DNA of 64,000 nucleotides from Antedon bifida (Eukaryota; Echinodermata; Crinoidea; Comatulida; Antedonidae), in assembly GCA_963402885.1 (NCBI GenBank), contig OY727099.1:8544001-8608000 (forward strand), read 5' to 3'. Below the pieces are notes generated by a model. That model made no database searches and was not told where the DNA came from. It was given only the letters and a program-made list of their open reading frames with translations. The translations under genes and the position numbers were made by a program. Below, piece after piece: positions 5,973 through 63,807 of this stretch (the first letter of the stretch is position 1; each line of letters begins with the position of its first letter).

Positions 5973-6130
5973 AGCTCTGTCTACACTATCAAACTAGTTT
6001 GACAAAAAAGTGTGATGTGCGCAAATATGGTAGTGATATGCTCAAACATGGTAGTGATATGACATCATCAAGTCCATATGGGCACATCGTATTTTTTTGT
6101 CACATAAAGTTTGATAGTGTAGACAGGGCT
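5973..6130. mobile_element. MITE family A, copy 1
   Basis: About 158 bp with terminal inverted repeats beginning AGCTCTGTCTACACTATC. Internal words reading ATGGTAGTGATATG are repeated. Direct TTAA words flank this copy (5969-5972 and 6130-6133), which could be a piggyBac-like target duplication, although they partly overlap the repeat ends. The same family recurs at least eight more times in the window. It has no coding capacity. Confidence 0.85.
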
Positions 6131-38007: not shown

Positions 38008-41000
38008 ATGGAAAAGCGCAAATTGTTCTCAACTGTTGGTCCGCCCGCTAAGAGATCCCACGCCGACTTTGATGACGATCCGTCAACATTTGAAGAAGAG
38101 TTGGCACTTCTTGACCAGATGGAGTCGGAAATGACTAAAGGCGATTCTATCAAAGGTTGTAAGTAAAATGTACTTGTGTAAGTTGGTGGTTTGGATGCTT
38201 TGTTACCAATCCAAGGGTCCTGGGTTCAAGTCCTGTCATATTAGAATTGTTTCTAATGATAAATTCTATATAAGACTTTGTTTATGTAGAGCATCTTGTG
38301 TATAATGTTTGTCTTGTGAACAGGATTGCCACCTTTAAGAAGGATAGTGAATGAATTTGCTTATGGTTATCCTTGCCAATTTGCCTAAATATATAAACAA
38401 AACAAAAGAGTACCCAGGAGTATTGCCTTGGCAACATCCTTTATTTTAAAATATTTTCTTTTCACAAAATAATGGGTTTCAAACTTTCATAATGTTTCCA
38501 ATCTAGAAGCTACCGATTGTCTGGCAACCTTATTATTACACTTTTTCCATAGCCTGTGGCGTTCAAGTGGAATTAAAAAATTTAATTAAAGTATTTAACC
38601 TGCTACCTGTTAACATCACGCTTGCATTAGCCATATTTAAAAAATCCACTTAAAAGTGATTGAGACGACTGTTTGACGCGCTATACATATACTTATCATT
38701 ATCAGAATTAATGCATGTAATTCATGCATATATGACAAATAATGCACTTACTCCCCATGATAATGTAGCCTAATGGATATAACCTTGCGCATTTTACTCG
38801 TTAAAATATAAGTGCTTAACAACTTGTTCTCTTGTCTGACACGCTTAAGTGTAATCTTAGATGCTAAGACCAATCATTATCAATTTTCTAAGAATTTAAA
38901 ATGTTTGTTAAATGCGAAAATAAATTTGTAATGCGTTTGACATTTAAAATGAGTATTATTAATAAAATTATCATTTAAAATAATTTTTTTAATAAATGAA
39001 AAAATTATTTTTTTATCAAAGTGAGAGTGTTGTGGTCTAAGTAAAAATAAATTATTTCTTTTATGAATTTATTGAGTGTATGCCTTTAATTTATTATTTT
39101 TATTTTCATTAAAGGCACGTCAACTACTGGTAAAGAAAAATGGAAAAGGCCAGCTCCACCCGTTATTGATCCAAAGGAAGATAGCTTGGTATTTCAGCAA
39201 ATAGATTTGGACTATTATATCGGTAAACACATTTGTGTCTAAGTCTAAAAGAAAAATATACTAATTAAGAGTATTAGAATATTCTGTCTATCAAACGCAA
39301 TAGATAATTTGCAAATAGATTTGGACTATTATATCGGTAAACACATTTGTGTCTAAGTCTAAAAGAAAAATATACTAATTAAGAGTGTTAGAATATTCTG
39401 TCTATCAAACACAATAGATAATTTTCATTCAATTATAAAACAAATCTGTTTATATTATCTAATCGAACACAATAGATCGTTGCCCTTTGACCTTAATTTA
39501 GATTTAATTAAAATCCAACATTAGAAACCTTGGCTATACCATATTATATAACTTTATTTTATTCCAATAATTGAAATAAAAGTACCTTTGTCTAATGTTT
39601 TATTGTTTTTCCTGTCCTTACTAGAGAATTAAATTGTTTGATGGTTTCATTCATTCAAAGGTACACATATGAAGAACATGCCAGGCCCCCTAAATGGCCC
39701 CACACCTATTGTTAGAATGTTCGGCATCACCATGGCAGGGAACAGTGTACTTTGTCATATACATGGCTTTACCCCTTACTTCTACATCAAGGCCCCCAAA
39801 GATTTCCAGGAAAAGCACTGCCAGATAGTTCGTGACCAGTTGAATAAAGCAGTGCTTGGTGACATGAGGTCAAATAAAGATGGCCTAGCAGAGGTCATCT
39901 TAGCAGTTGATCTAGAAAGCAAAGAAAGTGAGTTTTAACCTTTTGCTTTTATTTCCAATTTGTACAATATATTTTTATTTGTAATGATTTCATTTTATTA
40001 AAACATTATCTTTAAAGGTATTTATGGTTACCATGGAAATAAGAAAGAGCCGTTTCTAAAGATCACATTGGCAACTCCGAAATTCATCGCTCCTGCGAGG
40101 AGGTTACTTGAGCATGGTTCCGTCAATTTTGCACCATATCCGTCGGCTTGTCATCAAAGCTATGAAAGCAATATAGACTTTGAGATTAGGTAAGTTGTTA
40201 TTTCACCAATTTTAAGATTTGTTCAACTGTTGTTTAGCCAATGGCATCTTGGAATTCTATTTTTATAAATCATAAGTTTGCTCTTAAAATGTGCAACAAT
40301 TTGGACTTAATTTTAACTTTATGGTAACTGGACAGTTAGTGGTCCATTGATAACTGGACAGTTAGTGGTCCATTGATAACTGGACAGTTAGTGTTCCATT
40401 GGTAACTAGACAGTTAGTGATTCATTGATAACTGGACAGTTAGTGGTCCATTGATAACTGGGCAGTTAGTGGTCCATTGATAACTAGACAGTTAGTGGTC
40501 CATTGATAACTGGACAGTTAGTGGTCCATTGATAACTGGACAGTTAGTGGTCCATTGATAACTGGACAGTTAGTGGTCCATTGATAACTGGACAGTTAGT
40601 GGTCCATTGATAACTAGACAGTTAGTGGTCCATTGATAACTAGACAGTTAGTGGTCCATTGATAACTGGACAGTTAGTGGTCCATTGATAACTAGACAGT
40701 TAGTGGTCCATTGATAACTGGACAGTTAGTGGTCCATTGATAACTGGACAGTTAGTGGTCCATTGATAACTGGACAGTTAGTGGTCCATTGATAACTGGA
40801 CAGTTAGTGGTCCATTGATAACTGGACAGTTAGTGGTCCATTGATAACTGGACAGTTAGTGGTCCATTGATAACTGGACAGTTAGTGGTCCATTGATAAC
40901 TGGACAGTTAGTGGTCCATTGATAACTGGACAGTTAGTGGTCCATTGATAACTGGACAGTTAGTGGTCCATTGATAACTGGACAGTTAGTGGTCCATTGA

Positions 41001-44000
41001 TAACTGGACAGTTAGTGGTCCATTGATAACTGGACAGTTAGTGGTCCATTGATAACTGGACAGTTAGTGGTCCATAAATACCTAGATCCCACTCTAGCGT
41101 ACCTTCCAAAAATAGTTTTTATTGTATGCAGATTTATGGTCGATACCGAAGTCGTTGGTTGCAACTGGATTGAGCTACCAGCAAACCAGTACCATATAAG
41201 GAAAACCGGTAACGGGGAATTTGACAAACAGTCGCTGTGTCAGATTGAAGTAGATGTTGCGTGGGATGCTTTCATAAGTCACGCTGCAGAAGGCGAGTGG
41301 CAGAAAGTGGCGCCCTTCAGGATACTCAGTTACGATATAGAGTGTGCCGGTAGAAAAGGTAGGATGTTTGACAATGATAACAAATGCAGTTACATGTGGG
41401 GAGGAATTAAGATCTGAGAAGCACCCGATTCTCAGTCCTCTATCTACACATATGGCATTATTATATGAAAATTCCATAATACAGCATCTCATGTGATGTC
41501 TTTATCATAGAAGGTTAGGCTAATTAATTTTTAATATAAGACAAATAATAATAGATATATAATTAGGTGATCATTTAGAATAAAATGATCACCTATTGTT
41601 ATTGTACAAAATCTTTATTATTAGGTGATCATTTAGAATAAAATGATCACCTATTGTTATTGTACAAAATCTTTATTATTAAATAGAATAAAGACATTAT
41701 TTCAAAGTACTCGTGACAGTGTCACGCTAGTTGTACCAATTATTATTTATTCACATTTAGAATATTGTTATTTGTTTATGTTAGTAGTACCTTTCTTTTT
41801 AAATTTTCTTTCAAAATTACATAGGCCTCTAGCCCCCTCTATTCGTTTAGTTCATAATTTACTAAGCTATTTCATCGCTGCATGCCATGCCATCAAAACA
41901 ATAAATGACCTCTTGACCACATATGAAGAAATGGGTACCCTCCACTTCAATGTAGGTAAGTCACATAGCGACGTATATAATTATGGGTCCCGCAATTTCA
42001 CCTATACTGCACTGTATACAGACACACAGTATACTATTCCATATGATAAAATTGTACAACTTAGCACTATAAACATAATATACGCATCATGTCATAGGAT
42101 GGCGTACATCAACTTTTTACATTCATATTTTAATGTATGTCCATCAAATAATATATCAGTAACATGATAAAAATGATCACCTATAATTCGTCAAAGTGAC
42201 GAATTAAATTCTAGTTGTTATTATTATTATTCTTCTTTCTGTACACTTTTTGTTTAACAATTATCTCAAAAAGTTGAATAACAATGATCACAAAAATTTC
42301 ACAATGTCCTTCAAATACTTTAACTTAGCCATAATAAGCTTTTCAGCGTGATCACTCAACCGTGACGTCATTGATACGCGATTTTGTGAAATCACACTAT
42401 CAATCATATCTCCATAACTCTTTATCACATATCAATAAAATTCACTATACGTAAACTTCAGGTGAAGGATAAAAATATTACCAAATAAAAACTTACATTT
42501 TTCAAGGTCATGCACGTGAAATTGCGCGTTAAAAATTTAAAAAGCTCCAAATTAAGTTTTGATCAATTTAGAGCATGAGTTAGGCCATTTGCGTGTTTCA
42601 AAAAATTACTGCGCAAAAATGCGTTTTTGCGTGCGCAATTCTTAAAATGCGTAAAAAATATGAATTTTTTTTACAAATCGTATTCTACTCACCATCCTTA
42701 GTACATTCACCAAATTTGAGTCTGTTCCGACTTAAAATAACGCTATACGAGCAGGTTAAAAATGACAAAATGCGCACATTAATTGTACAAAAGTGCTAAA
42801 AATAGTAAAAAATAAGGCCTTTTTAAAATTAATATAACTCTTCAGAATGCACGATGACCCCCAATTTTTTAAACTTATTCTGGAAAACAATGAGTTGTAG
42901 ATATAAATGTATATACACATTAGACGTACAAAATGGTATGACGTCATCATTTGGCCACATGAATTTTTAAAATAGGGTTTTTTCCCCTTTTGTAATGGAC
43001 CACCATATTCAACAGAGCGCAACTCGCTTATCTGTGATCGATTTTCTCTAAATTTTTAATATATTCTACCTCAACCAATTATGTTACTTATGAGTTGCCA
43101 ATATTTTCATTTGGATGATGTCATCACGTCTTAAAATTTAAATAACGATGGTTACGTAATTTCACCTACAAGGTATACTTGAATACCTTACAGCTCTTCT
43201 GAATTAAAGTTGACCTTGATGTTTATAACTTATTATGAGAGCTGGTGAAATGTAGATATGAATTATTATAAAAATTAAGCCTATCGGATGTTGTGACGTT
43301 ATCATATGGCCAGTTAAAGTTAAAAAGTTGTTTTTTCATCTCTTTCGTAAAAGTTATACAATTTTTAAAGAGCGCGCACCGCCCTTCTACGTGCCAAATT
43401 TTCTTCCAATTGTTATATTTTATTGCTCAATTCATTATCTTTCGATATTGTTATCCACAAGTTTATTTTGATAATGTCATCAGTGCCGAAAAATTAGAAC
43501 ATGATGTGTGTCCGTAATTTCACCAATGCTACACTGTATATAGATATACAGTATATACTGTACATAATGTATATGGCATATAATAGGCACAGCACTATAG
43601 TATAACCGTATAATAGGATGGTATACATCAACATTTTCTGATTGTATTTTAACATACGTGCATGTTTAAAAAATATTAATGTCAATAAAATTATAAAAAT
43701 GATCACCTATAATTCGTCAAAGTGACGAATTAAATTCTAGTTAGGTGATCATTTAGAATAAAATGATCACCTATTGTTATTGTACAAAATCTTTATTATT
43801 GTTATTATTAGGTGATCATTTAGAATAAAATGATCACCTATTGTTATTGTACAAAATCTTTATTATTGTTATTATTATTATTCTTCTTCTTCTTCTTCTT
43901 TCTGTACACTTTTTGTTTAACAATTATCTCAAAAAGTTGAATAACAATGATCACAAAAATTTCACAATGTCTTTCAAATACTTTAACTTAGCCATAATAA

Positions 44001-47000
44001 GCTTTTCAGCATGATCACTCAACCGTGACGTCATTAATACGCGATTTTGTGAAATCACACTATCAATCATATCTCCATAACTCTTTATCACATATCAATA
44101 AAATTCACTATACGTAAACTTCAGGTGAAGGATACAAATATTAACAAATAAAAACTTACATTTTTCAAGGTCATGCACGTGAAATTGCGCGTTAAAAATT
44201 TAAAAAGCTCAAAATTAAGTTTTGATCAATTTCGAGCATGAGTTAGGCCATTTGCGTGTTTCAAAAAATTACTGCGCAAAAATGCGTTTTTGCGTGCGCA
44301 ATTCTTAAAATGCGTAAAAAATATGAATTTTTTTTACAAATCGTATTCTACTCACCATCCTTAGTACATTCACCAAATTTGAGTCTGTTCCGACTTAAAA
44401 TAACGCTATACGAGCAGGTTAAAATTGACAAAATGCGCACATTAATTGTACAAAAGTGCTAAAAATGGTAAAAAATAAGGCCTTTTTAAAATTAATATAA
44501 CTCTTCAGAATGCACGATGACCCCCAATTTTTTTAACTTATTCTGGAAGCCAATGAGTTGTAGATATAAATGTATATACACATTAGACGTACAAAATGGT
44601 ATGACGTCATCATTTGGCCACATTAATTTTTAAAATAGGGTTTTTTCCCCTTTTGTAATGGACCACCATATTCAACAGAGCGCAACTCGCTTATCTGTGA
44701 TCGATTTTCTTTAAATTTTTAATATATTCTACCTCAACCAATTATGTTACTTATGAGTTGCCAATATTTTCATTTGCATGATGTCATCACGTCTTAAAAT
44801 TTAAATAACGGTGGTTACGTAATTTCACCTACAAGGTATACTTGAATACCTTACAGCTCTTCTGAATTAAAGTTGACCTTGATGTTTATAACTTATTATG
44901 AGAGCTGGTGAAATGTAGATATGAATGCATATAAAAATTAAGCCTATCGAATGTTATAAAGTTATCATATGGCCAGTTGAAGTTAAAAAGTAGTTTTTTC
45001 ATCTCTTTCGTCAAAGTTATACACATTTTAAAGAGCGCGCACCGCGCTTCCACGTGCCAAATTTTATTCCAATTGTTATATTTTATTGCTCAATTCATTA
45101 TCTTTCGATATTGGTATCCACAAGTTTATTTTGATAATGTCATCAGTGCCAAAAACTTAGAACATGATGTGTGTCCGTAATTTCACCAATGCTACACTGT
45201 ATATAGATATAGAGTATACTGTACATAATGTGATATGGCATATAATAGGCACAACAAGCACTATAAGCGTATAATAGGATGGCATACATCAACATTTTCC
45301 GATTGTATGTTAACATACGTGCATGTTTAAAAAATATTAATGTCAATAAATTTATAAAAATGATCACCTATAATTCGTCAAAGTGACGAATTAAATTCTA
45401 GTTATTATTCTTCTTCTTTCTGTACACTTTTTGTTTAACAATTATCTCAAAAAGTTGAATAACAATGATCACAAAAATTTCACAATGTCTTTCAAATACT
45501 TTAACTTAGCCATAATAAGCTTTTCAGCGTGATCACTCAACCGTGACGTCATTAATACGCGATTTTGTGAAATCACACTATCAATCATATCTCCATAACT
45601 CTTTATCACATATCAATAAAATTCACTATACGTAAACTTCAGGTGAAGGATAAAAATATTAACAAATAAAAACTTACATTTTTCAAGGTCATGCACGTGA
45701 AATTGCGCGTTAAAAATTTAAAAAGCTCCAAATTAAGTTTTGATCAATTTAGAGCATGAGTTAGGCCATTTGCGTGTTTCAAAAAATTACTGCGCAAAAA
45801 TGCGTTTTTGCGTGCGCAATTCTTAAAATGCGTAAAAAATATGAATTTTTTTTACAAATCGTATTCTACTCACCATCCTTAGTATATTCACCAAATTTGA
45901 GTCTGTTCCGACTTAAAATAACGCTATACGAGCAGGTTAAAAATGACAAAATGCGCACATTAATTGTACAAAAGTGCTAAAAATAGTAAAAAATAAGGCC
46001 TTTTTAAAATTAATATAACTCTTCAGAATGCACGATGACCCCCAATTTTTTTAACTTATTCTGGAAGCCAATGAGTTGTAGATATAAATGTATATACACA
46101 TTAGACGTACAAAATGGTATGACGTCATCATTTGGCCACATGAATTTTTAAAATAGGGTTTTTTCCCCTTTTGTAATGGACCACCATATTCAACAGAGCG
46201 CAACTCGCTTATCTGTGATCGATTTTCTTTAAATTTTTAATATATTCTAACTCAACCAATTATGTTACTTATGAGTTGCCAATATTTTCATTTGGATGAT
46301 GTCATCACGTCTTAAAATTTAAATAACGGTGGTTACGTAATTTCACCTACAAGGTATACTTGAATACCTTACAGCTCTTCTGAATTAAAGTTGACCTTGA
46401 TGTTTATAACTTATTATGAGAGCTGGTGAAATGTAGATATGAATTATTATAAAAATTAAGCCTATCGGATGTTGTGACGTTATCATATGGCCAGTTGAAG
46501 TTAAAAAGTAGTTTTTTCATCTCTTTCGTCAAAGTTATACAATTTTTAAAGAGTGCGCACCGCCCTTCTACGTGCCAAATTTTCTTCCAATTGTTATATT
46601 TTATTGCTCAATTCATTATCTTTCGATATTGTTATCCACAAGTTTATTTTGATAATGTCATCAGTGCCGAAAAATTAGAACATGATGTGTGTCCGTAATT
46701 TCACCAATGCTACACTGTATATAGATATACAGTATATACTGTACATAATGTATATGGCATATAATAGGCACAGCACTATGTATAACCGTATAATAGGATG
46801 GCATACATCAACATTTTCTGATTGTATTTTAACATACGTGCATGTTTAAAAAATATTAATGTCAATAAAATTATAAAAATGATCAGCTATAATTCGTCAA
46901 AGTGACGAATTAAATTCTAGTTAGGTGATCATTTAGAATAAAATGATCACCTATTGTTATTGTACAAAATATTATTATTATTCTTCTTTCTGTACACTTT

Positions 47001-50000
47001 TTGTTTAACAATTATCTCAAAAAGTTGAATAACAATGATCACAAAAATTTCACAATGTCTTTCAAATACTTTAACTTAGCCATAATAAGCTTTTCAGCGT
47101 GATCACTCATCCGTGACGTCACGTATACGCCATTTTGTGAAATCACATTATCAATCATATGTCCATAATTCATTATCACATATTTATGAAATCCACTACA
47201 CGTAAATTTCAGGTTAAGGTAAAAAATATTAACAAATAAAAACTTGCGCATCTCAAGGTCATGCACGTGAAATCGCGCGCAAAGATTTTAAAAAGCTTAA
47301 AATTAAGTTTTGATCAATTTAGAGCATGAATTAGGCCATTTGCGTGTTTCAAAAAATTACTGCGCAAAAACACGTTTTTGCGTACGCGATTCTTAGAAGG
47401 CGTAAAAAATGAAATTTGATGTATAAATCACATTCTACTCACAATTCTTAGTACATTCACCGATCTTGAGTCCATTCCGACTTAAAATAACGGTATACGA
47501 GCACGTTAAAAAAGACAAAATGCGCACATTAATTTCACAAAAGTGCTAAAAATGGTAAAAAATATGTCTTTTTTAAAATGAAAATAACTCTTCAGAATGC
47601 ACGATGACCCCCAATTTGTTTAACTTATTCTGGAAGCCAATGAGTTGTAGATATAAATGTATATACACATTAGACGTACAAAATGGTATGACGTCATCAT
47701 TTGGCCACATTAATTTTTAAAATAACGTTTTTTCCCCTTTTGTAATGGACCACCATATTCAACAGAGCGCAACTCGCTTATCTGTGATCGATTTTCTTTA
47801 AATTTTTAATATATTCTACCTCAACCAATTATGTTACTTAGGAGTTGCCAATATTTTCATTTGGATGATGTCATCACGTCTTAAAATTTAAATAACGGTG
47901 GTTACGTAATTTCACCTACAAGGTATACTTGAATACCTTACAGCTCTTCTGAATTAAAGTTGACCTTGATGTTTATAACTTATTATGAGAGCTGGTGAAA
48001 TTTAGATATGAATTATTATAAAAATTAAGCCTATCGGATGTTGTGACGTTATCATATGGCCAGTTGAAGTTAAAAAGTAGTTTTTTCATCTCTTTCGTCA
48101 AAGTTATACAATTTTTAAAGAGCGCGCACAGCGCTTCTACGTGCCAAATTCTCTTCCAATTCTTATATTTATTTGCTCAATTCATGTTCTTTCGAAATTG
48201 CCATCTTCGAATTTATTTTGATAATTCCATCATACCAAAAAATTAGAACATGATATGTGTCCCGTGATTTCACCAATGCTACACAGTATATAGATATACA
48301 GTATATACTGTACATAATGTATATGGCATATAATAGGCACAGCACTATAGTATAACCGTATAATAGGATGGCATACATCAACATTTTCTGATTGTATTTT
48401 AAAATACGTGCATGTTTAAAAAATATTAATGTCAATAAAATTATAAAAATGATCACCTATAATTCGTCAAAGTGACGAATTAAATTCTAGTTATTATTAT
48501 TCTTCTTCTTCTTCTTTCTGTACACTTTTGTTTAGCAATTATCTCAAAAAGTTGAATAACAATGATCACAAAAATTTCACAATGTCTTTCAAATACTTTA
48601 ACTTAGCCATAATAAGCTTTTCAGCGTGATCACTCAACCGTGACGTCATTAATACGCGATTTTGTGAAATCACACTATCAATCATATCTCCATAACTCTT
48701 TATCACATATCAATAAAATTCACTATACGTAAACTTCAGGTGAAGGATAAAAATATTAACAAATAAAAACTTACATTTTTCAAGGTCATGCACGTGAAAT
48801 TGCGCGTTAAAAATTTAAAAAGCTCCAAATTAAGTTTTGATCAATTTAGAGCATGAGTTAGGCCATTTGCGTGTTTCAAAAAATTACTGCGCAAAAATGC
48901 GTTTTTGCGTGCGCAATTCTTAAAATGCGTAAAAAATATGAATTTTTTTTACAAATCGTATTCTACTCACCATCCTTAGTACATTCACCAAATTTGAGTC
49001 TGTTCCGACTTAAAATAACGCTATACGAGCAGGTTAAAAATGACAAAATGCGCACATTAATTGTACAAAAGTGCTAAAAATGGTAAAAAATAAGGCCTTT
49101 TTAAAATTAATATAACTCTTCAGAATGCACGATGACCCCCAATTTTTTTAACTTATTCTGGAAGCCAATGAGTTGTAGATATAAATGTATATACACATTA
49201 GACGTACAAAATGGTATGACGTCATCATTTGGCCACATTAATTTTTAAAATAGGGTTTTTTCCCATTTTGTAATGGACCACCATATTCAACAGAGCGCAA
49301 CTCGCTTATCTGTGATCGATTTTCTTTAAATTTTTAATATATTCTACCTCAACCAATTATGTTACTTATGAGTTGCCAATATTTTCATTTGGATGATGTC
49401 ATCACGTCTTAAAATTTAAATAACGGTGGTTACGTAATTTCACCTACAAGGTATACTTGAATACCTTACAGCTCTTCTGAATTAAAGTTGACCTTGATGT
49501 TTATAACTTATTATGAGAGCTGGTGAAATGTAGATATGAATTATTATAGAAATTAAGCCTATCGGATGTTGTGACGTTATCATATGGCCAGTTGAAGTTA
49601 AAAAGTAGTTTTTTCATCTCTTTCGTCAAAGTTATACAATTTTTAAAGAGCGCGCACCGCCCTTCTACGTGCCAAATTTTCTTCCAATTGTTATATTTTA
49701 TTGCTCAATTCATTATCTTTCGATATTGTAATCCACAAGTTTATTTTGATAATGTCATCAGTGCCGAAAAATTAGAACATGATGTGTGTCCGTAATTTCA
49801 CCAATGCTACACTGTATATAGATATACAGTATATACTGTACATAATGTATATGGCATATAATAGGCACAGCACTATAGTATAACCGTATAATAGGATGGC
49901 ATACATCAACATTTTCTGATTGTATTTTAAAATACGTGCATGTTTAAAAAATATTAATGTCAATAAAATAATAAAAATGATCACCTATAATTCGTCAAAG

Positions 50001-53000
50001 TGACGAATTAAATTCTAGTTATTGTTATTATTCTTCTTTCTGTACACTTTTTGTTTAACAATTATCTCAAAAAGTTGAATAACAATGATCACAAAAATTT
50101 CACAATGTCTTTCAAATACTTTAACTTAGCCATAATAAGCTTTTCAGCGTGATCACTCATCCGTGACGTCACGTATACGCGATTTTGTGAAATCACACTA
50201 TCAATCATATCTCCATAACTCTTTATCACATATCAATAAAATTCACTATACGTAAACTTCAGGTGAAAGATAAAAATATTAACAAATAAAAACTTACATT
50301 TTTCAAGGTCATGCACGTGAAATTGCGCGTTAAAAATTTAAAAAGCTCCAAATTAAGTTTTGATCAATTTAGAGCATGAGTTAGGCCATTTGCGTGCTTC
50401 AAAAAATTACTGCGCAAAAATGCGTTTTTGCGTGCGCAATTCTTAAAATGCGTAAAAAATATGAATTTTTTTTACAAATCGTATTCTACTCACCATCCTT
50501 AGTACATTCACCAAATTTGAGTCTGTTCCGACTTAAAATAACGCTATACGAGCAGGTTAAAAATGACAAAATGCGCACATTAATTGTACAAAAGTGCTAA
50601 AAATAGTAAAAAATAAGGCCTTTTTAAAATTAATATAACTCTTCAGAATGCACGATGACCTCCAATTTGTTTAACTTATTCTGGAAGCCAATGAGTTGTA
50701 GATATAAATGTATATACACATTAGACGTACAAAATGGTATGACGTCATCATTTGGCCACATGAATTTTTAAAATAGGGTTTTTTCCCCTTTTGTAATGGA
50801 CCACCATATTCAACAGAGCGCAACTCGCTTATCTGTGATCGATTTTCTTTAAATTTTTAATATATTCTACCTCAACCAATTATGTTACTTATGAGTTGCC
50901 AATATTTTCATTTGGATGATGTCATCACGTCTTAAAATTTAAATAACGGTGGTTACGTAATTTCACCTACAAGGTATACTTGAATACCTTACAGCTCTTC
51001 TGAATTAAAGTTGACCTTGATGTTTATAACTTATTATGAGAGCTGGTGAAATGTAGATATGAATTATTATAAAAATTAAGCCTATCGGATGTTGTGACGT
51101 TATCATATGGCCAGTTGAAGTTAAAAAGTATTTTTTTCATCTCTTTCGTCAAAGTTATACAATTTTTAAAGAGTGCGCACCGCCCTTCTACGTGCCAAAT
51201 TTTCTTCCAATTGTTATATTTTATTGCTCAATTCATTATCTTTCGATATTGTTATCCACAAGTTTATTTTGATAATGTCATCAGTGCCGAAAAATTAGAA
51301 CATGATGTGTGTCCGTAATTTCACCAATGCTACACTGTATATAGATATACAGTATATACTGTACATAATGTATATGGCATATAATAGGCACAGCACTATG
51401 TATAACCGTATAATAGGATGGCATACATCAACATTTTCTGATTGTATTTTAACATACGTGCATGTTTAAAAAATATTAATGTCAATAAAATTATAAAAAT
51501 GATCACCTATAATTCGTCAAAGTGACGAATTAAATTCTAGTTAGGTGATCATTTAGAATAAAATGATCACCTATTGTTATTGTACAAAATCTTTATTATT
51601 AGGTGATCATTTAGAATAAAATGATCACCTATTGTTATTGTACAAAATCTTTATTATTGTTATTATTATTATTCTTCTTTCTGTACACTTTTGTTTAACA
51701 AATATCTCAAAAAGTTGAATGGCAATGATCACAAAAATTTCACAATGTCTTTTAAATACTTTAACTTAGCCATAATAAGCTTTTCAGCGTATTCACTCAA
51801 CCGTGACGTCATTAATACGCGATTTTGTGAAATCACACTATCAATCATATCTCCATAACTCTTTATCACATATCAATAAAATTCACTATACGTAAACTTC
51901 AGGTTAAGGATAAAAATATTAACAAATAAAAACTTACATTTTTCAAGGTCATGCACGTGAAATTGCGCGTTAAAAATTTAAAAAGCTCCAAATTAAGTTT
52001 TGATCAATTTAGAGCATGAGTTAGGCCATTTGCGTGTTTCAAAAAATTACTGCGCAAAAATGCGTTTTTGCGTGCGCAATTCTTAAAATGCGTAAAAAAT
52101 ATGAATTTTTTTTACAAATCGTATTCTACTCACCATCCTTAGTACATTCACCAAATTTGAATCTGTTCCGACTTAAAATAACGCTATACGAGCAGGTTAA
52201 AAATGACAAAATGCGCACATTAATTGTACAAAAGTGCTAAAAATAGTAAAAAATAAGGCCTTTTTAAAATTAATATAACTCTTCAGAATGCACGATGACC
52301 CCCAATTTTTTTAACTTATTCTGGAAGCCAATGAGTTGTAGATATAAATGTATATACACATTAGACGTACAAAATGGTATGACGTCATCATTTGGCCACA
52401 TGAATTTTTAAAATAGGGTTTTTTCCCCTTTTGTAATGGACCACCATATTCAACAGAGCGCAACTCGCTTATCTGCGATCGATTTTCTTTAAATTTTTAA
52501 TATATTCTACCTCAACCAATTATGTTACTTATGAGTTGCCAATATTTTTATTTGGATGATGTCATCACGTCTTAAAATTTAAATAACGGTGGTTACGTAA
52601 TTTCACCTACAAGGTATACTTGATTACCTTACAGCTCTTCTGAATTAAAGTTGACCTTGATGTTTATAACTTATTATGAGAGCTGGTGAAATGTAGATAT
52701 GAATTATTATAAAAATTAAGCCTATCGGATGTTTTGACGTTATCATATGGCCAGTTGAAGTTAAAAAGTAGTTTTTTCATCTCTTTCGTCAAAGTTATAC
52801 AATTTTTAAAGAGCGCGCACCGCCCTTCTACGTGCCAAATTTTCTTCCAATTGTTATATTTTATTGCTCAATTCATTATCTTTCGATATTGTCATCCACA
52901 AGTTTATTTTGATAATTTCATCAGTGCCGAAAAATTAGAACATGATGTGTGTCCGTAATTTCACCAATGCTACACTGTATATAGATATACAGTATATACT

Positions 53001-56000
53001 GTACATAATGTATATGGCATATAATAGGCACAGCACTATAGTATAACCGTATAATAGGATGGCATACATCAACATTTTATGATTGTATTTTAACATACGT
53101 GCATGTTTAAAAAATATTAATGTCAATAAAATTATAAAAATGATCACCTATAATTCGTCAAAGTGACGAATTAAATTCTAGTTGTTATTATTATTATTCT
53201 TCTTCTTCTTCTTCTTTCTGTACACTTTTTGTTTAACAATTATCTCAAAAAGTTGAATAACAATGATCACAAAAATTTCACAATGTCTTTCAAATACTTT
53301 AACTTAGCCATAATAAGCTTTTCAGCGTGATCACTCATCCGTGACGTCACGTATACGCCATTTTGTGAAATCACACTATCAATCATATCTCCATAACTCT
53401 TTATCACATATCAATAAAATTCACTATACGTAAACTTCAGGTGAAGGATAAAAATATTAACAAATAAAAACTTACATTTTTCAAGGTCATGCACGTGAAA
53501 TTGCGCGTTAAAAATTTAAAAAGCTCCAAATTAAGTTTTGATCAATTTAGAGCATGAGTTAGGCCATTTGCGTGTTTCAAAAAATTACTGCGCAAAAATG
53601 CGTTTTTGCGTGCGCAATTCTTAAAATGCCTAAAAAATATGAATTTTTTTTACAAATCGTATTCTACTCACTATCCTTAGTACATTCACCAAATTTGAGT
53701 CTGTTCCGACTTAAAATAACGTTATACGAGCAGAATAAAAATGACAAAATGCGCACATTAATTGTACAAAAGTGCTAAAAATGGTAAAAAATAAGGCCTT
53801 TTTAAAATTAATATAACTCTTCAGAATGCACGATGACCCCCAATTTTTTTAACTTATTCTGGAAGCCAATGAGTTGTAGATATAAATGTATATACACATT
53901 AGACGTACAAAATGGTATGACGTCATCATTTGGCCACATGAATTTTTAAAATAGGGTTTTTTCCCCTTTTGTAATGGACCACCATATTTAACAGAGTCCA
54001 ACTCGCTTATCTGTGATCGATTTTCTTTAAATTTTTAATATATTCTACCTCAACCAATTATGTTACTTATGAGTTGCCAATATTTTCATTAGGATGATGT
54101 CATCACGTCTTCAAATTTAAATAACGGTGGTTACGTAATTTCACCTACAAGGTATACTTGAATACCTTACAGCTCTTCTGAATTAAAGTTGACCTTGATG
54201 TTTATAACTTATTATGAGAGCTGGTGAAATGTAGATATGAATTATTATAAAAATTAAGCCTATCGGATGTTGTGACGTTATCATATGGCCAGTTGAAGTT
54301 AAAAAGTAGTTTTTTCATCTCTTTCGTTAAAGTTATACAATTTTTAAAGAGCGCGCACCGCCCTTCTACGTGCCAAATTTTCTTCCAATTGTTATATTTT
54401 ATTGCTCAATTCATTATCCTTCGATATTGTTATCCACAAGTTTATTTTGATAATGTCATCAGTGCCGAAAAATTAGAACATGATGTGTGTCCGTAATTTC
54501 ACAAATGCTACACTGTATATAGATATACAGTATATACTGTACATAATGTATATGGCATATAATAGGCACAGCACTATAGTATAACCGTATAATAGGATGG
54601 CATACATCAACATTTTCCGATCGTATGTTAACGTACGTGCATGTTTAAAAAATATTAATGTCAATAAAATTATAAAAATGATCACCTATAATTCGTCAAA
54701 GTGACGAATTAAATTCTAGTTATTCTTCTTTCTGTACACTTTTGTTTAACAAATATCTCAAAAAGTTGAATGGCAATGATCACAAAAATTTCACAATGTC
54801 TTTTAAATACTTTAACTTAGCCATAATAAGCTTTTCAGCGTGATCACTCAACCGTGACGTCATTAATACGCGATTTTGTGAAATCACACTATCAATCATA
54901 TCTCCATAACTCTTTATCACATATCAATAAAATTCACTATACGTAAACTTCAGGTGAAGGATAAAAATGTTAACAAATAAAAACTTACATTTTTCAAGGT
55001 CATGCACGTGAAATTGCGCGTTAAAAATTTAAAAAGCTCCAAATTAAGTTTTGATCAATTTAGAGCATGAGTTAGGCCATTTGCGTGTTTCAAAAAATTA
55101 CTGCGCAAAAATGCGTTTTTGCGTGCGCAATTCTTAAAATGCGTAAAAAATATGAATTTTTTTTACAAATCGTATTCTACTCACCATCCTTAGTACATTC
55201 ACCAAATTTGAATCTGTTCCGACTTAAAATAACGCTATACGAGCAGGTTAAAAATGACAAAATGCGCACATTAATTGTACAAAAGTGCTAAAAATAGTAA
55301 AAAATAAGGCCTTTTTAAAATTAATATAACTCTTCAGAATGCACGATGACCCCCAATTTTTTTAACTTATTCTGGAAGCCAATGAGTTGTAGATATAAAT
55401 GTATATACACATTAGACGTACAAAATGGTATGACGTCATCATTTGGCCACATGAATTTTTAAAATAGGGTTTTTTCCCCTTTTGTAATGGACCACCATAT
55501 TCAACAGAGCGCAACTCGCTTATCTGTGATCGATTTTCTTTAAATTTTTAATATATTCTACCTCAACCAATTATGTTACTTATGAGTTGCCAATATTTTT
55601 ATTTGGATGATGTCATCACGTCTTAAAATTTAAATAACGGTGGTTACGTAATTTCACCTACAAGGTATACTTGAATACCTTACAGCTCTTCTGAATTAAA
55701 GTTGACCTTGATGTTTATAACTTATTATGAGAGCTGGTGAAATGTAGATATGAATTATTATAAAAATTAAGCCTATCGGATGTTGTGACGTTATCATATG
55801 GCCAGTTGAAGTTAAAAAGTAGTTTTTTCATCTCTTTCGTCAAAGTTATACAATTTTTAAAGAGCGCGCACCGCCCTTCTACGTGCCAAATTTTCTTCCA
55901 ATTGTTATATTTTATTGCTCAATTCATTATCTTTCGATATTGTTATCCACAAGTTTATTTTGATAATGTCATCAGTGCCGAAAAATTAGAACATGATGTG

Positions 56001-59000
56001 TGTCCGTAATTTCACCAATGCTACACTGTATATAGATATACAGTATATACTGTACATAATGTATATGGCATATAATAGGCACAGCACTATAGTATAACCG
56101 TATAATAGGATGGCATACATCAACATTTTATGATTGTATTTTAACATACGTGCATGTTTAAAAAATATTAATGTCAATAAAATTATAAAAATGATCACCT
56201 ATAATTCGTCAAAGTGACGAATTAAATTCTAGTTTTGTATTATCATTGTATCAATTTGTTTTGTTGGGAACCCCTTTGGAAAGAGCCTTTGGGCCTAAAG
56301 GGTTATCCCCTGCTTCCCATGTTTAATTTCTCAAGTTTAATGTTTGTATTATTCTATGTAATTAATATCATTCAAATATTATACTGTTTTATAAATTGTA
56401 CTGTTCTTGGAAACTTACTTACTTACTTACTAAGAATTAGGTTATTGTTTGAGACCCTCTGTGCTATCTTCTTTGTGAAAAATTATCTTTGACTCTAGCA
56501 TAAGATTAAAAAAACAAAAACTAAATTAGGACCTTAATTGAGCTTACAGACGCCCATAACTAATTGTAATTTGCTTCTCTCTTTCAGGTATTTTTCCAGA
56601 ACCTGATAAAGATCCAGTCATTCAGATAGCCAACATGGTTATATGCCAGGGGCAGAAGGACCCATTTGTTCGTAACGTCTTCACACTCAACTCGTGTGCA
56701 CCCATAGTTGGAAGTGATGTGTTGTCCTTCATGAATGAGAGAGATTTACTAAAGGTACATATTTCAATCAATCAAAATCAACATTTATTTCCAAAAAGGT
56801 GGTGTCACCAAAAAAGCAAAAGCTTGTGTCAGGGACGCCAAAACAAAACATTCAAAAGCAAACAGAACATATATATAAGACACAGAAATGAAAATAACAA
56901 TAAAACGTAAAGCGGTACATATCAATTGCAGTATAAATCATATTAATACATTTTCACTATTGCTAAAGGTATTTGTGCCATAATGTCTTTAAATGTGCCC
57001 AAATATGGTAGTGATATGCCCAACTATGGTAGTGATATGACATCATCATGTCCATATTTGGGCACATCACACTTATTTTTCTTTGAAGCTCTGTCTACAC
57101 TATCAAACTTTATATGAATTTGATGTACCCATATATGAACATGATGATGTATAAGTTGTGCATATAACTACAGTACCATATTATTTGGGCACATCATACT
57201 TTTTTGTCACATAAAGTTCGATAGTGTAGACAGAGGTTAAATCCACATACACATTTTCTGAATCCAGATTTTTTTTTTATAAAGATTGCCTTTAATTATG
57301 TATAGTGAATTATTATAAATGTTATTGTATCTTTTTCTATTAAAGAGTTGGTCAGAATTTATTAAGGACGTTGACCCTGACATTATTACTGGATACAACA
57401 TCCAGAACTTTGACATGCCGTACCTACTGAACCGTGCAGCTGCGTTGAAAGTTAAGGAGTTCCCGTTTTTAGCACGTATCCTAAACACACGCAGCGTTAT
57501 CAAAGATTCAACATTTCAGTCCAAGCAGATGGGGAAGAGAGAGAACAAAGTTGTAAATATTGAGGGCAGAGTTCAATTCGATTTATTCCAGGTAAATATT
57601 CAAGACACCTTCCCTACGTTTTTTAGATCTAATTTAAGATCACAAACTATATTTAATGTAAAAATAATACTATATGGTCCTATTGCGATAACTTTTTTCG
57701 TCTTTAAACGGTTAAAAATGTGAAAAATAAGTCGATTCTAATAATTATAGCGGCCCGCTATAAATCCCAAAATGCATTGCACACGGATTGATATTTTTGC
57801 TTTTTTTTCACCCACTTTTCGAACGATGTTCGTACGTTACCGATGTTTACTAGCTAGGCCTGGCCTAAGACCGTCCACGAGAGGTCAATCGCCGCGAGCT
57901 ACTTAGGTAGTGCATTGTATCTGTCTTTTTATCATAATTTACCAAAAAACGTACATTTAAGACAAGGAATGACATGGTTTAATGTTTTTAAAGTAATATA
58001 TATGTATTATTTTTACAAAACGTAACAAATTGTAGGGAAGGTGTCTTTAACCTTTTTAACAGCTACCAGTGACAAATCCAGGATTTTGAAATAGATCGCC
58101 CAGGGCCTAAACAGGGAGAAATAAAGTGATGAACTTAATCTAATGTCCTATCTTTTGCCTTGTATTTTCAAAGGGCCCTTGAAGCTGCCTATGATAATTG
58201 TTGTCAAAAAGTGTGACATTTATGTACAGGTTTTCTTGCTTCAATTATACTCTCCAGTAAGGATTTTTTTGTTTTTGTTCTTTTACAGATTCTTTTGCGG
58301 GATTATAAATTGCGTTCGTACAGACTGAACGCTGTCAGTTTTCACTTCCTGGAGGAACAAAAGGAAGATGTACAACATTCAATCATTACAGATCTACAAG
58401 TAAGAAAAGATACTAAATAATTGTTATACCCGATTCACACATGCAACACAAATAGAAGAATATCTTGTAGGATAATCTTACTGAGTTACAGTGCTTTCAC
58501 ACACGGTATAATGTAATGTAAAGGCTGTGTAAAGCTCTGTCTACACTATCAAACTAGTTTGACAAAAAAAGTGTGGTGTACCAAATTATGGTAGTAATAT
58601 GACATCATGTCCATATATGAGCATATAACATTTTCTTATCACATAAAGTTTGATAGTGTAGTTTGAATAACTTTTTAAATATATACGTGTTACACCGCTG
58701 TTACATGAATGTAATCTTTTAGAGGCCTCCAAAAATTACCAACTTCATCCACAATTTTACATCGATCTAATGATTTTATTTACTATGGTTCTTCAAGGAT
58801 ATCAATACATTACAATGTTACATTTGGTAAGAGTAGTATAGTGTGAATCGGGTGTAAGTCTAATTTAGTAAACATTAACTTAGTTTCAATAACCGTATCT
58901 CCAGTGTACACATCTAGATCATGTGCACTTTAAAGAACCTAGTACATCTTTCCAGATGAGTAGGAGGTTATCCCTGTGTACTAGTACATCACATCCACTG

Positions 59001-62000: not shown

Positions 62001-63807
62001 CACATACAGTTGATTATTTTAATATTAATATACTATTTTATAAAAGCCTTTGATTATCATTGTACTAGATAATTAACAGCAAATAAAACAATTTTTTTTA
62101 GAGCTAAAACAGAACTAAAGAAAGAGACTGACCCATTCAGAAAGAAGGTACTGGATGGCCGCCAGTTAGCTTTGAAAATCAGTGCCAACTCTGTGTATGG
62201 CTTCACAGGGGCTCAAGTTGGCAAGCTACCATGTTTAGAGATCTCACAGGTACTTTAAATATATTTAAATAAAATATAATAATTAAAATGGTCAATAAAT
62301 TTATTGTTAGATTGTTAGAGTAAAATTTAAAAAGAGTAGAGATGAAGAGTAAAGATTATTTGTGCATTTTGCAAGTAAAAAAATCAGGCATTTGTAATGT
62401 TATGTCATATATTTCATTTCATTTATTTATTTGACCAACTAACCATAATATAAAATATACAGAGATGAATTGGTCAGGGACTGCTAAAGTAAATAAGATT
62501 ACTATAACTACAAGAGTCAGCAGTCCCATATATATTATATAAATATATATCATATTTTTCTGTCCTGTACTGCAGTATCAATTGGAATGAATTCTATATA
62601 AAAACTTGCATTTCAGAGCGTAACAGCATTTGGAAGAATGATGATTGAACGAACCAAAGACTTTGTGGAATCTAAGTACACAGTTGCAAATGGTTATCAA
62701 CACGATGCAAAGGTACATTAGCAATGGTAGATTGGTAGTTAACATGTTTACCATAATTCCGGGTTCAACCTTAAGCTAGTGCCAGGGTTCAATCTTAAGC
62801 TAGTATCTGGGTTCAATCTTAAGCTAGTGTCAGGGTTCAATCTTAAGCTAGTGTCAGGGTTCAATCTTAAGCTAGTGTCAGGGTTCAATCTTAAGCTAGT
62901 GTCAGGGTTCAATCTTAACCTAGTGTCCGGGTTCAATCTTAAGCTAGTGTCAGGGTTCAATCTTAAGCTAGTGTCAGGGTTCAATCTTAAGCTAGTGTCA
63001 GGGTTCAATCTTAAGCTAGTGTCAGGGTTCAATCTTAACCTAGTGTCCGGGTTCAATCTTAAGCTAGTGTCAAGGTTTAATCCTGACCTAGTTGTTTGTT
63101 TTTATATATTTAGGCAAATTGCCAAGAATCAATTATTTAGTTATAAACTGTTGTTTATCATTAGAAGAAATCCTGACACTGACAGGACTTGAACCCAGGA
63201 CCCTTGGATTGGTAGCTAAGAATCAACTCCAACAACAACAACAGTACAGTACAACTGTTTCTCCATTCCCTAAACTTCAAATGAACCTTTAGGATGGCGA
63301 GTTACTTGCTGTTGGATGTGTAGTTCATTACATTTTTATAACTATTACAGTAATAATTAAAATCATTGCTTTATTCTGAAATAATTTCTAACATTTGTAG
63401 GTAATTTATGGCGACACAGATTCTGTTATGATTAAGTTTGGTGTAGATACTGTCCAGGCAAGCATTGACCTGGGAAAAGAAGCTGCAGAGTGGATAACAA
63501 AGGAGTTCCCAGATCCGTGCAAGTTGGAATTTGAAAAAGTACATTTATTTTTCTTTTTATAATAAACGTTTTTTAAATGTTAATTTTATCCTTTTTTTAT
63601 TCATAAATTGTTATATTTATTTTATTTTTTTCAGGTTTATTTTCCTTACTTATTAATCAATAAGAAACGGTATGCAGGATTGTATTTCACAAAAGCTGAT
63701 GTTCATGATAAGATGGATTGCAAAGGGATAGAGACGGTCCGTCGGGATAACAGTCCACTTGTTGCAAACCTCATAAACACTTGTCTCCAGAAAATATTAA
63801 TCGAAAG
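38008..63807 (+). CDS. POLD1: DNA polymerase delta catalytic subunit (3' end beyond window)
   Basis: The B-family polymerase that copies the lagging strand and proofreads it. Coding exons: 38008-38158, 39115-39222, 39661-39927, 40018-40189, 41132-41358, 56588-56754, 57346-57591, 58289-58399, 59087-59367, 59943-60053, 61033-61146, 62102-62249, 62617-62712, 63401-63538 and 63635-63807. Phases agree throughout: 836 codons plus two bases. Exonuclease motifs: DIE (301-303), YNIQNFD (381-387), YCLKD (496-500). Polymerase motifs: A, DFSSLYPS (587-594); [10 protein letters not shown] (677-685); C, YGDTDS (736-741). Alignment by eye with human POLD1 is close over the whole length, about 15 residues shorter at the N-terminus. 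All catalytic acids are intact. The last exon ends phase 2 at a GTATG donor, so the thumb and the C-terminal cysteine modules lie to the right. Odd points: intron 5 is 15.2 kb and nearly all tandem repeats, intron 4 is mostly a minisatellite, and the exon 2 donor is duplicated. Confidence 0.97.
38190..38395 (+). repeat. SINE with tRNA-like head in POLD1 intron 1
   Basis: GGGTCCTGGGTTCAAGTCC (B box region) is followed by the TTTATGTAGAGCATCTTG body shared with 8830-8955. A related head in reverse orientation lies at 63165-63232. Confidence 0.55.
39197..39424 (+). repeat. 114-bp tandem duplication spanning the POLD1 exon 2 donor
   Basis: GCAAATAGATTTGGAC begins at 39197 and again at 39311, and about 110 bp after each are nearly identical. 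Each copy contains the last 26 coding bases of exon 2 and the donor CGGTAAACAC. Using the second donor would add 114 nt in frame but meets TAA after GKHICV, so it would truncate the protein. Confidence 0.85.
40324..41073 (+). repeat. 26-bp minisatellite in POLD1 intron 4
   Basis: About 29 head-to-tail copies of GATAACTGGACAGTTAGT plus GGTCCATT. Most copies are identical; variants have TAGACAG for TGGACAG. It ends about 60 bp before exon 5 and makes up about 80% of the intron. Confidence 0.95.
41690..41860 (+). pseudogene. Non-LTR reverse transcriptase C-terminal fragment
   Basis: The frame reads IIYSHLEYC and then [16 protein letters not shown], resembling the P-H-L-E-Y-C ... L..LQ..AIR block that follows the palm in LINE reverse transcriptases. 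It is short, with no catalytic motif; a decayed fragment captured inside the small element. Confidence 0.4.
42185..42214 (+). other. 3'-terminal hairpin and CTAG of the repeat family
   Basis: Arms AATTCGTCA and TGACGAATT around AAG, then AAATT and CTAG. The same structure closes every unit (CTAG at 43737, 45398, 46917, 48487, 50015, 51537, 53178, 54716 and 56229). A hairpin a few bases before CTAG is the 3' signature of Helitron elements. Confidence 0.7.
42215..43740 (+). mobile_element. Array unit 1 (1526 bp)
   Basis: Begins with a TTATT microsatellite and the CTTTCTGTACACTTTTTG start, and ends at hairpin plus CTAG. It carries two TGACGTCA palindromes (42363-42370, 42939-42946). Its small frames are shared by copy and not evidence of coding. 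Confidence 0.85.
43741..45401 (+). mobile_element. Array unit 2 (1661 bp)
   Basis: Opens with two copies of the 60-bp TTAGGTGATCATTTAG segment, then a TTATT/CTT microsatellite. Otherwise close to unit 1, with scattered substitutions towards its 3' end. Confidence 0.85.
45402..46920 (+). mobile_element. Array unit 3 (1519 bp)
   Basis: Lacks the 60-bp start segment. It shares the diagnostic 3' variants AGAGTGCGCACCGCCC and CAGCACTATGTATAACC with unit 6. Its 3' subterminal repeat has GATCAGC for GATCACC. Confidence 0.85.
46921..48490 (+). mobile_element. Array unit 4 (1570 bp), the divergent mosaic unit
   Basis: Has one 60-bp start segment. The part at about 47100-47580 and a short stretch at about 48160-48260 differ from the other units at many positions, while the sequence between and after them is nearly identical to the rest. 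It lacks the usual 68-codon frame. Confidence 0.85.
48491..50018 (+). mobile_element. Array unit 5 (1528 bp)
   Basis: No 60-bp start segment; starts with TTATTATT/CTTCTT. Very close to the consensus. Shares a TTTTAAAATACGTGCATG variant near its 3' end with unit 4. Confidence 0.85.
50019..51540 (+). mobile_element. Array unit 6 (1522 bp)
   Basis: Has the CATCCGTGACGTCACGTATA variant in its 5' part, shared with units 4 and 8, and the 3' variants shared with unit 3. Confidence 0.85.
51541..53181 (+). mobile_element. Array unit 7 (1641 bp)
   Basis: Opens with two 60-bp start segments. Shares AACAAATATCTC, GTTGAATGGCAATG and TTTGAATCTGTTCC with unit 9, so these two are closest relatives. Confidence 0.85.
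53182..54719 (+). mobile_element. Array unit 8 (1538 bp)
   Basis: Longer CTT microsatellite at its start. Carries the CATCCGTGACGTCACGTATA variant also seen in units 4 and 6, and private changes such as GAGCAGAATAAAAATG. Confidence 0.85.
54720..56232 (+). mobile_element. Array unit 9 (1513 bp, last)
   Basis: The shortest unit, with the smallest junction microsatellite. It ends at CTAG 56229-56232 and is followed by TTTTGTATT, which is unique sequence. Confidence 0.85.
56992..57075. mobile_element. MITE family A, partial copy 7a
   Basis: Only the internal part (ATGGTAGTGATATG words to GGGCACATCACAC) remains. It abuts a second copy. Confidence 0.6.
57087..57236. mobile_element. MITE family A, copy 7b
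   Basis: Left end AGCTCTGTCTACACTATC, right end CGATAGTGTAGACAGAGG. In POLD1 intron 6, close to exon 7. Confidence 0.8.
57602..58047. mobile_element. MITE with AAGACACCTTCCCTAC inverted termini
   Basis: AAGACACCTTCCCTAC at 57602-57617 and its exact reverse complement at 58032-58047 bound a 446-bp non-coding element. It starts 10 bp after POLD1 exon 7, immediately downstream of the splice donor. Confidence 0.8.
58533..58661. mobile_element. MITE family A, copy 8
   Basis: Left end AGCTCTGTCTACACTATC; the right end GTTTGATAGTGTAG has lost its final bases. In POLD1 intron 8. Confidence 0.75.
58896..59060 (+). repeat. 5'-truncated SINE, same family as 19556-19862
   Basis: Matches the body from TCCAGTGTACACATCTAG through GGGCCCTC to CCCAGTATAAAT. 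The tRNA-like head is missing. It ends less than 30 bp before POLD1 exon 9. Confidence 0.7.
60099..60454. mobile_element. MITE family B, complete copy
   Basis: About 356 bp bounded by TTAAAGATGTATTGTCCCCC and the inverted GGGGGACAATACATCTTTAA. In POLD1 intron 10. Confidence 0.85.
61155..61700 (+). mobile_element. LINE 3' end (5'-truncated non-LTR retrotransposon)
   Basis: The frame ends with [17 protein letters not shown]...LSKLKKY, matching the conserved GPxLWNxLP...LKxxL C-terminus of many LINE reverse transcriptase ORFs. A 3' UTR follows and the element ends in a GAATT repeat at about 61680-61699. No catalytic domain remains. It lies in POLD1 intron 11. Confidence 0.7.
61874..62013. mobile_element. 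MITE family A, copy 9 (right end lost)
   Basis: Left end AGCTCTGTCTACACTATC and internal words intact. The right terminal repeat stops at TCACATACAGTTGAT. In POLD1 intron 11. Confidence 0.75.
62760..63084 (+). repeat. 24-bp minisatellite with a 120-bp higher-order period
   Basis: About 13 copies of AAGCTAGTGTCAGGGTTCAATCTT-type 24-mers (first 18 bases AAGCTAGTGTCAGGGTTC). A variant AACCTAGTGTCCGGG occurs twice, exactly 120 bp apart, and bases 62821-62940 equal 62941-63060. In POLD1 intron 13. Confidence 0.9.
63165..63232 (-). repeat. tRNA-like SINE head, reverse orientation
   Basis: The reverse strand reads CCAAGGGTCCTGGGTTCAAG and TCCTGTCA, matching the head at 38205-38245. Confidence 0.5.

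Follow-up and report, generated by a model that had tools for sequence, protein, structure and literature searches.

Same-orientation arrays of Helentron-like elements in the crinoid Antedon bifida, probably built mainly by insertion of elements into one another

An array of repeated units in a POLD1 intron

We analyzed 64,000 nucleotides of the Antedon bifida genome (assembly GCA_963402885.1, contig OY727099.1, positions 8,544,001 to 8,608,000 of the forward strand). In this stretch (hereafter, the window), an array of transposon-like units occupies a single intron of POLD1, the DNA polymerase delta catalytic gene, and here we describe its structure and weigh how it was assembled. The exons upstream (41133 to 41357, plus strand) and downstream (56590 to 56754, plus strand) of the array were recognized by phmmer matches to polymerase delta 6s1m, at residues 254 to 323 (E 1.3e-23) and 325 to 378, respectively. 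Ten exact copies of the 30-base string AATTCGTCAAAGTGACGAATTAAATTCTAG, which comprises a 9-bp-stem hairpin, AAATT, and CTAG, are present on the plus strand of the window, ending at positions 42214, 43740, 45401, 46920, 48490, 50018, 51540, 53181, 54719, and 56232. An earlier note on this DNA, made from the sequence alone, had placed nine units with CTAG ends, all in one orientation, in this intron. The exact-string positions and the flanking exon matches bear out the location, orientation, and ends. The count holds for nine full units of 1.51 to 1.66 kb each, but there are ten 3′ ends, and the extra one, at 42214, closes a divergent first unit that is only about 0.65 kb long.

The earlier note had also reported a 12-bp subterminal repeat near the 3′ end of each unit, its inverse at the 5′ end, and a variable microsatellite at the junctions. 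The microsatellite is present as claimed. With both strands counted and at most one mismatch allowed, the window contains 24 occurrences of the 12-mer AAATGATCACCT, compared to 0.6 expected, and both the repeat and its inverse are found; however, the 5′ mark goes beyond an inverse 12-mer, being a perfect 12-bp-stem hairpin, AGGTGATCATTT-AGAATA-AAATGATCACCT. There are seven such hairpins in the window, starting at 41565, 41623, 43743, 43810, 46923, 51543, and 51601. At the 3′ terminus of the last unit (56189 to 56232, plus strand), the 12-bp subterminal repeat is followed by the 3′ hairpin, AAATT, and CTAG, and the string from hairpin to CTAG is the same in all ten unit ends. When folded as DNA and compared with shuffled sequences, the 5′ hairpin had a z score of −7.6 and the 3′ hairpin a z score of −5.2.

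Family A across the genome and its coding partner

We refer to the elements with these termini as family A and searched for them in the genome (315.6 Mb), in which C1, C7, C9, and so on are contig labels. Allowing up to three mismatches, we detected 1984 family-A 3′ ends (none with a reversed control) and 1493 5′ hairpins (none with a control). As read from thirty loci on C1 and ten 5′ ends, an intact element consists, in order, of TT, 5′ hairpin, spacer, T-rich microsatellite, body, subterminal repeat, 3′ hairpin, CTAG, and TT. Single copies with the same ends, for which the earlier note had proposed a search, are numerous: 68 of the first 100 exact 3′ ends listed on C1 stand alone and the others form runs of 2 to 8, under a 1.8-kb same-strand rule applied to exact ends, so that some neighbors may be missed. 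Among the same 100 ends, 19 have a same-strand neighbor 1.4 to 1.8 kb away (0.09 expected at random) and none has an opposite-strand neighbor at that distance. Other types of start also occur after CTAG, namely a GGTTTTCCGC hairpin on C15 and TGAGAAATTG and TGTGAAATTG on C7.

A coding Helentron on C9 is a candidate for the autonomous element with the same termini that the earlier note had suggested looking for. A Helitron_like_N match at C9:12009698 (Pfam E 2.2e-33) belongs to a 2787-aa open frame, and in the 957-aa piece of it that we read, a PIF1 helicase is accompanied by an Exo_endo_phos domain at the C terminus. Beyond the frame, at a distance of 1.2 kb, is a terminus that matches the family-A 3′ end exactly. 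Bases 10 to 1348 of unit 2 of the array are 86% identical to the region read as the 5′ part of this element, and bases 1447 to 1526 are 90% identical to its 3′ end; the partner was read as two stretches 8.2 kb apart, with the length of the frame bridging part of the gap. Because unit 2 matches both ends, family A appears to have been derived from a coding Helentron by internal deletion. Among protein stretches resembling the C9 partner, identity is 99% for one on C15, 89% for three others, 87% for one that is broken, and about 65% for a further group.

Together with other sequence features, this element supports assigning the array units to non-autonomous Helentrons (HINE-type), in line with the Helentron- or DINE-like nature proposed in the earlier note. 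Subterminal inverted repeats of 12 to 15 bp are present at both ends along with a 3′ palindrome; a Rep-Pif1 protein with a C-terminal endonuclease occurs on C9 between the same ends, the 5′ end having been fitted by homology to unit 2; and insertion is at TT in T-rich DNA with no other change to the target, although a 2-bp TT duplication would look alike. The Rep motif is RGSPHVH in 19 of the 20 Rep loci that we examined (L055 to L074, a sample outside which the Rep of the C9 partner falls) and RGLPHVH in L055. A motif of the RGSPH type is described as a Helentron signature (PMC4067079; here and below, statements about published systems refer to the portions of the cited papers that we drew on).

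Other assignments were also compared. With regard to terminal inverted repeat transposons, the repeats here are subterminal and the ends asymmetric, but a 2-bp duplication of TT would look the same as Ts at the ends of the element. Canonical Helitrons begin with TC at the 5′ end and insert between A and T, and we rejected them on the basis of the TT insertion site and the RGSPH motif. L055 (C12:16129729), the strongest Helitron_like_N match, carries the canonical-type RGLPH motif, and canonical Helitrons seem to coexist with Helentrons in this genome. We also rejected the Rep locus L075 on C10 as the partner of family A: Exo_endo_phos is present, but the 7 kb read contains no family-A 3′ end on its own strand. 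The opposite strand of this region carries family B, a separate Helentron-like family with its own 5′ hairpin, GGTTATCCGC, and its own 3′ end. Family B likewise occurs in tandem, with repeated 5′ modules (L075, L003, L008, and L012).

Insertion at TT and rejoining of interrupted microsatellites

A search for junctions between a family-A end and a family-A body, using a pattern without a TT requirement, returned 247 junctions, of which 238 start with TT, compared to TT at 63.5% of the possible cut points (P about 1e-35). TT follows CTAG at 29 of 30 C1 loci and precedes the hairpin in all ten C1 copies examined; in the arrays that we read, it precedes the hairpin in 28 of 28 cases and follows CTAG in 32 of 34. 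Insertion is also locked to one strand: for exact A ends, we found no A hairpin followed within 5 to 35 bases by an inverted end, whereas 308 hairpins are followed directly by another hairpin.

In a filled site the element is flanked by TT on each side, and a rejoined site has a single TT, a pattern consistent with either a 2-bp duplication or insertion between two Ts by an element with terminal Ts. The test for target duplications at single copies suggested in the earlier note therefore gave a result that fits published Helentrons yet is indistinguishable from a 2-bp TT duplication. A similar ambiguity over which Ts belong to the element has been described (PMC4067079), including for Drosophila (PMC2374699).

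The microsatellites of family A hold an estimated 0.03 to 0.04% of genomic TT sites (scaled from the window) and account for 247 of the 1984 ends, an excess of approximately 280- to 370-fold. Stretches nearly as T-rich (at least 17 TT in 32 bases) occur four times in 49 kb of the window; because such stretches exist, the excess over them may be small. The C1 copies also lie in DNA that is T-rich on the same strand (mean of 4.5 TT per 16 bases over 30 loci), so special self-recognition by the element is not needed, and the targeting likely reflects a general preference for same-strand T-rich DNA.

If one element inserts into the microsatellite of another, the resident is split, and joining its two flanks should restore an uninterrupted microsatellite. 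We examined this with family B inside family A. Genome-wide, there are 30 junctions from a B end to an A body and 103 from an A hairpin to a B start, 100 of which were used. For 16 of the 30 right junctions, a left junction lies upstream on the same strand within 4 kb; none has one on the opposite strand, and one has one on the same strand but on the wrong side. As reference alleles we used 48 sequences, derived from 92 uncut strings among the 100 listed of 542 uninterrupted A microsatellites (the other 8 listed strings, cut at 80 letters, were excluded). When the flanks were joined with TT counted once, 10 of the 16 pairs gave an exact uninterrupted allele; counting 0, 1, 3, 4, 5, or 6 bases once gave 0, 0, 1, 0, 2, and 1 exact joins, respectively. 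Permuting the partners gave a mean of 1.6 exact joins and a maximum of 7 in 20,000 permutations. The summed edit distance of the joins was 25, compared to a permuted mean of 68 and a minimum of 34 in 5,000 permutations. The strings compared had the same lengths as the spans listed for them. On C9, the order of features is A, A, A, and B hairpins, then B, A, and A ends, a second complete B, and the outermost A body, which we interpret as the 5′ portion of the coding Helentron.

For family A inside family A, the available material consisted of 23 right and 45 left pieces, with six right junctions having candidate left pieces. Four of these six rejoin exactly with one candidate, TT being counted once in each. 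Near 19.29 Mb on C1, six 5′ hairpin modules follow one another (C1:19291235 to 19291571) at a spacing of 55 to 75 bases, and the string precedes a run of six exact 3′ ends. Three right pieces were compared there: the outermost hairpin rejoins solely with the piece of the last listed body, approximately 9.7 kb away, the second hairpin matches none of the three, and the next three hairpins share one left piece that fits both inner right pieces.

The window array can be read in the same way (all features on the plus strand). If each 5′ hairpin is written as “(” and each CTAG end as “)”, and double matches of the loose B-end pattern at A-end positions are discounted, the order is (( ) ) (( ) ) ( ) ) ) (( ) ) ). 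The first nest opens with hairpin a (41565 to 41594) and hairpin b (41623 to 41652, a match to the hairpin pattern), followed by unit 1 (41653 to 42214), the last 225 bases of which are 73.5% identical to the 3′ part of unit 2 by blastn, and by unit 2 (WIN_2, 42215 to 43740), a body with no adjacent hairpin of its own that we read as the partner of hairpin a. In the second nest, hairpin c (43743 to 43772) precedes the uninterrupted unit 3 (WIN_3, 43810 to 45401, hairpin d through CTAG) and unit 4 (WIN_4, 45402 to 46920), read as its partner. Unit 5 (WIN_5, 46923 to 48490, hairpin e through CTAG) is likewise uninterrupted and is followed by two bodies, unit 6 (WIN_6, 48491 to 50018) and unit 7 (WIN_7, 50019 to 51540). 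The third nest consists of hairpin f (51543 to 51572), the uninterrupted unit 8 (WIN_8, 51601 to 53181, hairpin g through CTAG), and unit 9 (WIN_9, 53182 to 54719), read as the partner of hairpin f; unit 10 (WIN_10, 54720 to 56232) is the final body. Disregarding the CTT count, hairpins a, c, and f rejoin with WIN_2, WIN_4, and WIN_9, the bodies predicted by the brackets. Of the six bodies tried, hairpin c fits WIN_4 alone, and hairpins a and f, which share a left piece, each fit both WIN_2 and WIN_9.

Several other repeats were noted in the window. Within unit 1, a small palindrome at 41708 to 41732 has CTAGTT directly after it and is perhaps the end of another element. A 26-bp tandem repeat (29 copies, 97% matches) lies just before the upstream POLD1 exon, at 40325 to 41075, and further tandem repeats are found at 62761 to 63082 (24 bp, 13.4 copies) and 15655 to 16102 (157 bp, 2.9 copies). 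Short tandem runs of a 21-base unit like GTGATATGCCCAAATATGGTA occur at 6012, 12866, 31391, 56996, and 61913, and a repeat resembling this unit flanks one family-A copy on C1 (L078). An Rfam scan of positions 40000 to 58000 returned no match at gathering scores.

Origin of the arrays and comparison with known systems

The array is, very probably, mainly a stack of separate insertions of family A into one another. The Rep-Pif1-endonuclease of an autonomous Helentron, presumably of the C9 type, would act in trans to generate the newcomers, which would enter at TT. Because TT is frequent on just one strand of the resident 5′ microsatellite, elements arriving there would take the orientation of the resident. 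Each arrival would split the resident, with the newcomer lying whole between the 5′ hairpin piece of the resident, to its left, and the resident body, now without a hairpin, to its right; repeated arrivals would produce an apparent head-to-tail order. Some 5′ hairpins may have been lost later through slippage, recombination, or composite transposition.

The kinship of the units fits this account. We built a tree of 59 bodies, comprising 30 C1 loci and 29 anchored bodies labeled by place (the window and seven other places, C11 contributing one unit); C15_1, C7_4, C16_1, and WIN_1 have no 5′ anchor and were excluded. The places were chosen as best matches to a window unit, and the sample therefore leans toward that subfamily. 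Among the 29 labeled bodies, the tree requires 18 label changes, compared to a mean of 18.4 after shuffling, and a value as low was obtained in 106 of 200 shuffles. Mean identity is 95.8% within arrays (60 pairs) and 94.8% between arrays (346 pairs). The WIN_5 body has exact counterparts in C7b_1 and C7b_3 of contig C7 and differs by 6 to 8% from the other window bodies, and C9_1 is identical to C7_1. Most array units are thus independent of one another.

Among the alternatives, composite transposition, in which a segment bounded by an outer 5′ end and an inner 3′ end moves as one and strings of hairpins are inserted ready-made, is compatible with nesting and survives best. Hairpin strings, of up to six modules among those listed, are what it would produce, and the process has been suggested for Helitrons of fungi that carry several 5′ termini (PMC5148889). 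Against it, the C1 string near 19.29 Mb is matched by six 3′ ends and its outermost pieces rejoin, as nesting in place predicts. We consider this process unlikely as the principal source of the arrays, and probable as an addition to nesting, along with loss of the short AT-rich hairpin module and some local duplication.

Two further alternatives, both put forward in the earlier note, do not agree with the tree, the B-family inserts, or the rejoining microsatellites. One is a rolling-circle concatemer, in which a single Helentron was multiplied from a circle or by reading through CTAG and inserted ready-made. Tandem insertions and circular forms of Helitrons are known from other hosts (PMC5148889), and direct CTAG-TT-hairpin joints exist in this genome; however, the window units differ by up to approximately 8% and most have their nearest kin elsewhere, a concatemer of A cannot place B elements between an A hairpin and an A body, and it cannot explain why the left and right pieces of a microsatellite add up to a single allele. 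We regard this origin as very improbable. The other, local expansion of a single inserted element into a satellite through unequal exchange, would account for the sisterhood of WIN_8 and WIN_10 and for the excess of 3′ ends over 5′ hairpins, but it is equally hard to credit when the units are not grouped by array, WIN_5 has identical counterparts on another contig, and most of the sampled 3′ ends are solitary. Non-nested arrays of Mutator-like elements of the SaTar type do not match the nesting supported by the C9 order, the junction pairing, and the rejoin test.

Several observations weigh against nesting as the main source of the arrays. The window has seven hairpins for ten bodies, leaving WIN_6, WIN_7, and WIN_10 without a 5′ partner in the array, and genome-wide the 5′ hairpins are likewise fewer than the 3′ ends. 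Among the 100 left junctions listed, 14 of the 30 junctions from B to an A body have no partner within 4 kb, and 6 of the 16 joined pairs are inexact, three of them at edit distances of 8, 7, and 5. For A inside A, the distance rule returned no candidates on the opposite strand but six on the wrong side, which is expected in arrays, and this comparison has no permutation. On C15, a divergent and presumably old unit has a common-type hairpin immediately in front of it, an order that simple nesting leaves unexplained. The direct CTAG-TT-hairpin joints on C7 are tandem rather than nested and are best read as probable insertions at a flanking TT. The sister relationship of WIN_8 and WIN_10 (support 96) is expected from local duplication and may reflect it. 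Finally, TT is partly built into the junction patterns other than that of the 247-junction search, and the strand test is limited to exact A ends.

If the arrays arose by nesting, this offers a testable alternative to concatemers and unequal exchange for transposon arrays and perhaps for satellites, and it accounts for the single orientation without special machinery. The rejoining of microsatellite pieces is a simple sequence test that can be applied to any Helentron-rich genome. A more speculative possibility, which we put forward with considerable doubt, is that the T-rich 5′ microsatellite of Helentrons is a built-in landing pad, its one-stranded TT density drawing later copies of any family in a fixed orientation. 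If true, families would accumulate within copies already in place and give rise to satellite-like arrays, and the idea may extend to Helentrons and DINE-1 elements as a whole and account for the microsatellite that they carry.

Occasional nested self-insertion of Helitrons is already published; the building of arrays by self-insertion is, as far as we found, new. In the portions of the open-licence literature that we drew on, we found no account of Helentron arrays arising from repeated insertion into the elements’ own microsatellite. Family A resembles the Helentron, HINE, and DINE-1 elements described in 2014 (PMC4067079) in its 12- to 15-bp subterminal inverted repeats near both ends, its 3′ palindrome, its T-rich target that has two or more Ts on either side, its Rep-helicase-endonuclease partner, and the existence of deletion derivatives with the same ends; arrays of whole elements formed by insertion into the 5′ microsatellite are not described in that source. 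The FoHeli (Helitron2-like) elements of Fusarium and Metarhizium (PMC5148889) are likewise non-canonical, and self-insertion, insertion at the 5′ end, and multiple 5′ termini have been proposed for them. That proposal concerns one or a few cases and leaves a three-copy tandem open between nesting and rolling-circle copying, whereas here the pattern is genome-wide and the split target rejoins. The SaTar arrays of guayule and rice (PMC5907723) are also multi-element arrays aimed at microsatellites, but, going by the description in the abstract, they consist of Mutator-like elements and are uniformly non-nested, whereas the family-A arrays are very probably nested. Cg_HINE of the Pacific oyster (PMC7492417) shares a Helentron derivation, a TT target, a microsatellite on the left flank, and a link to satellite-like arrays. 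In Cg_HINE the tandem repeats lie inside the element, whereas in A. bifida whole elements follow one another in succession.

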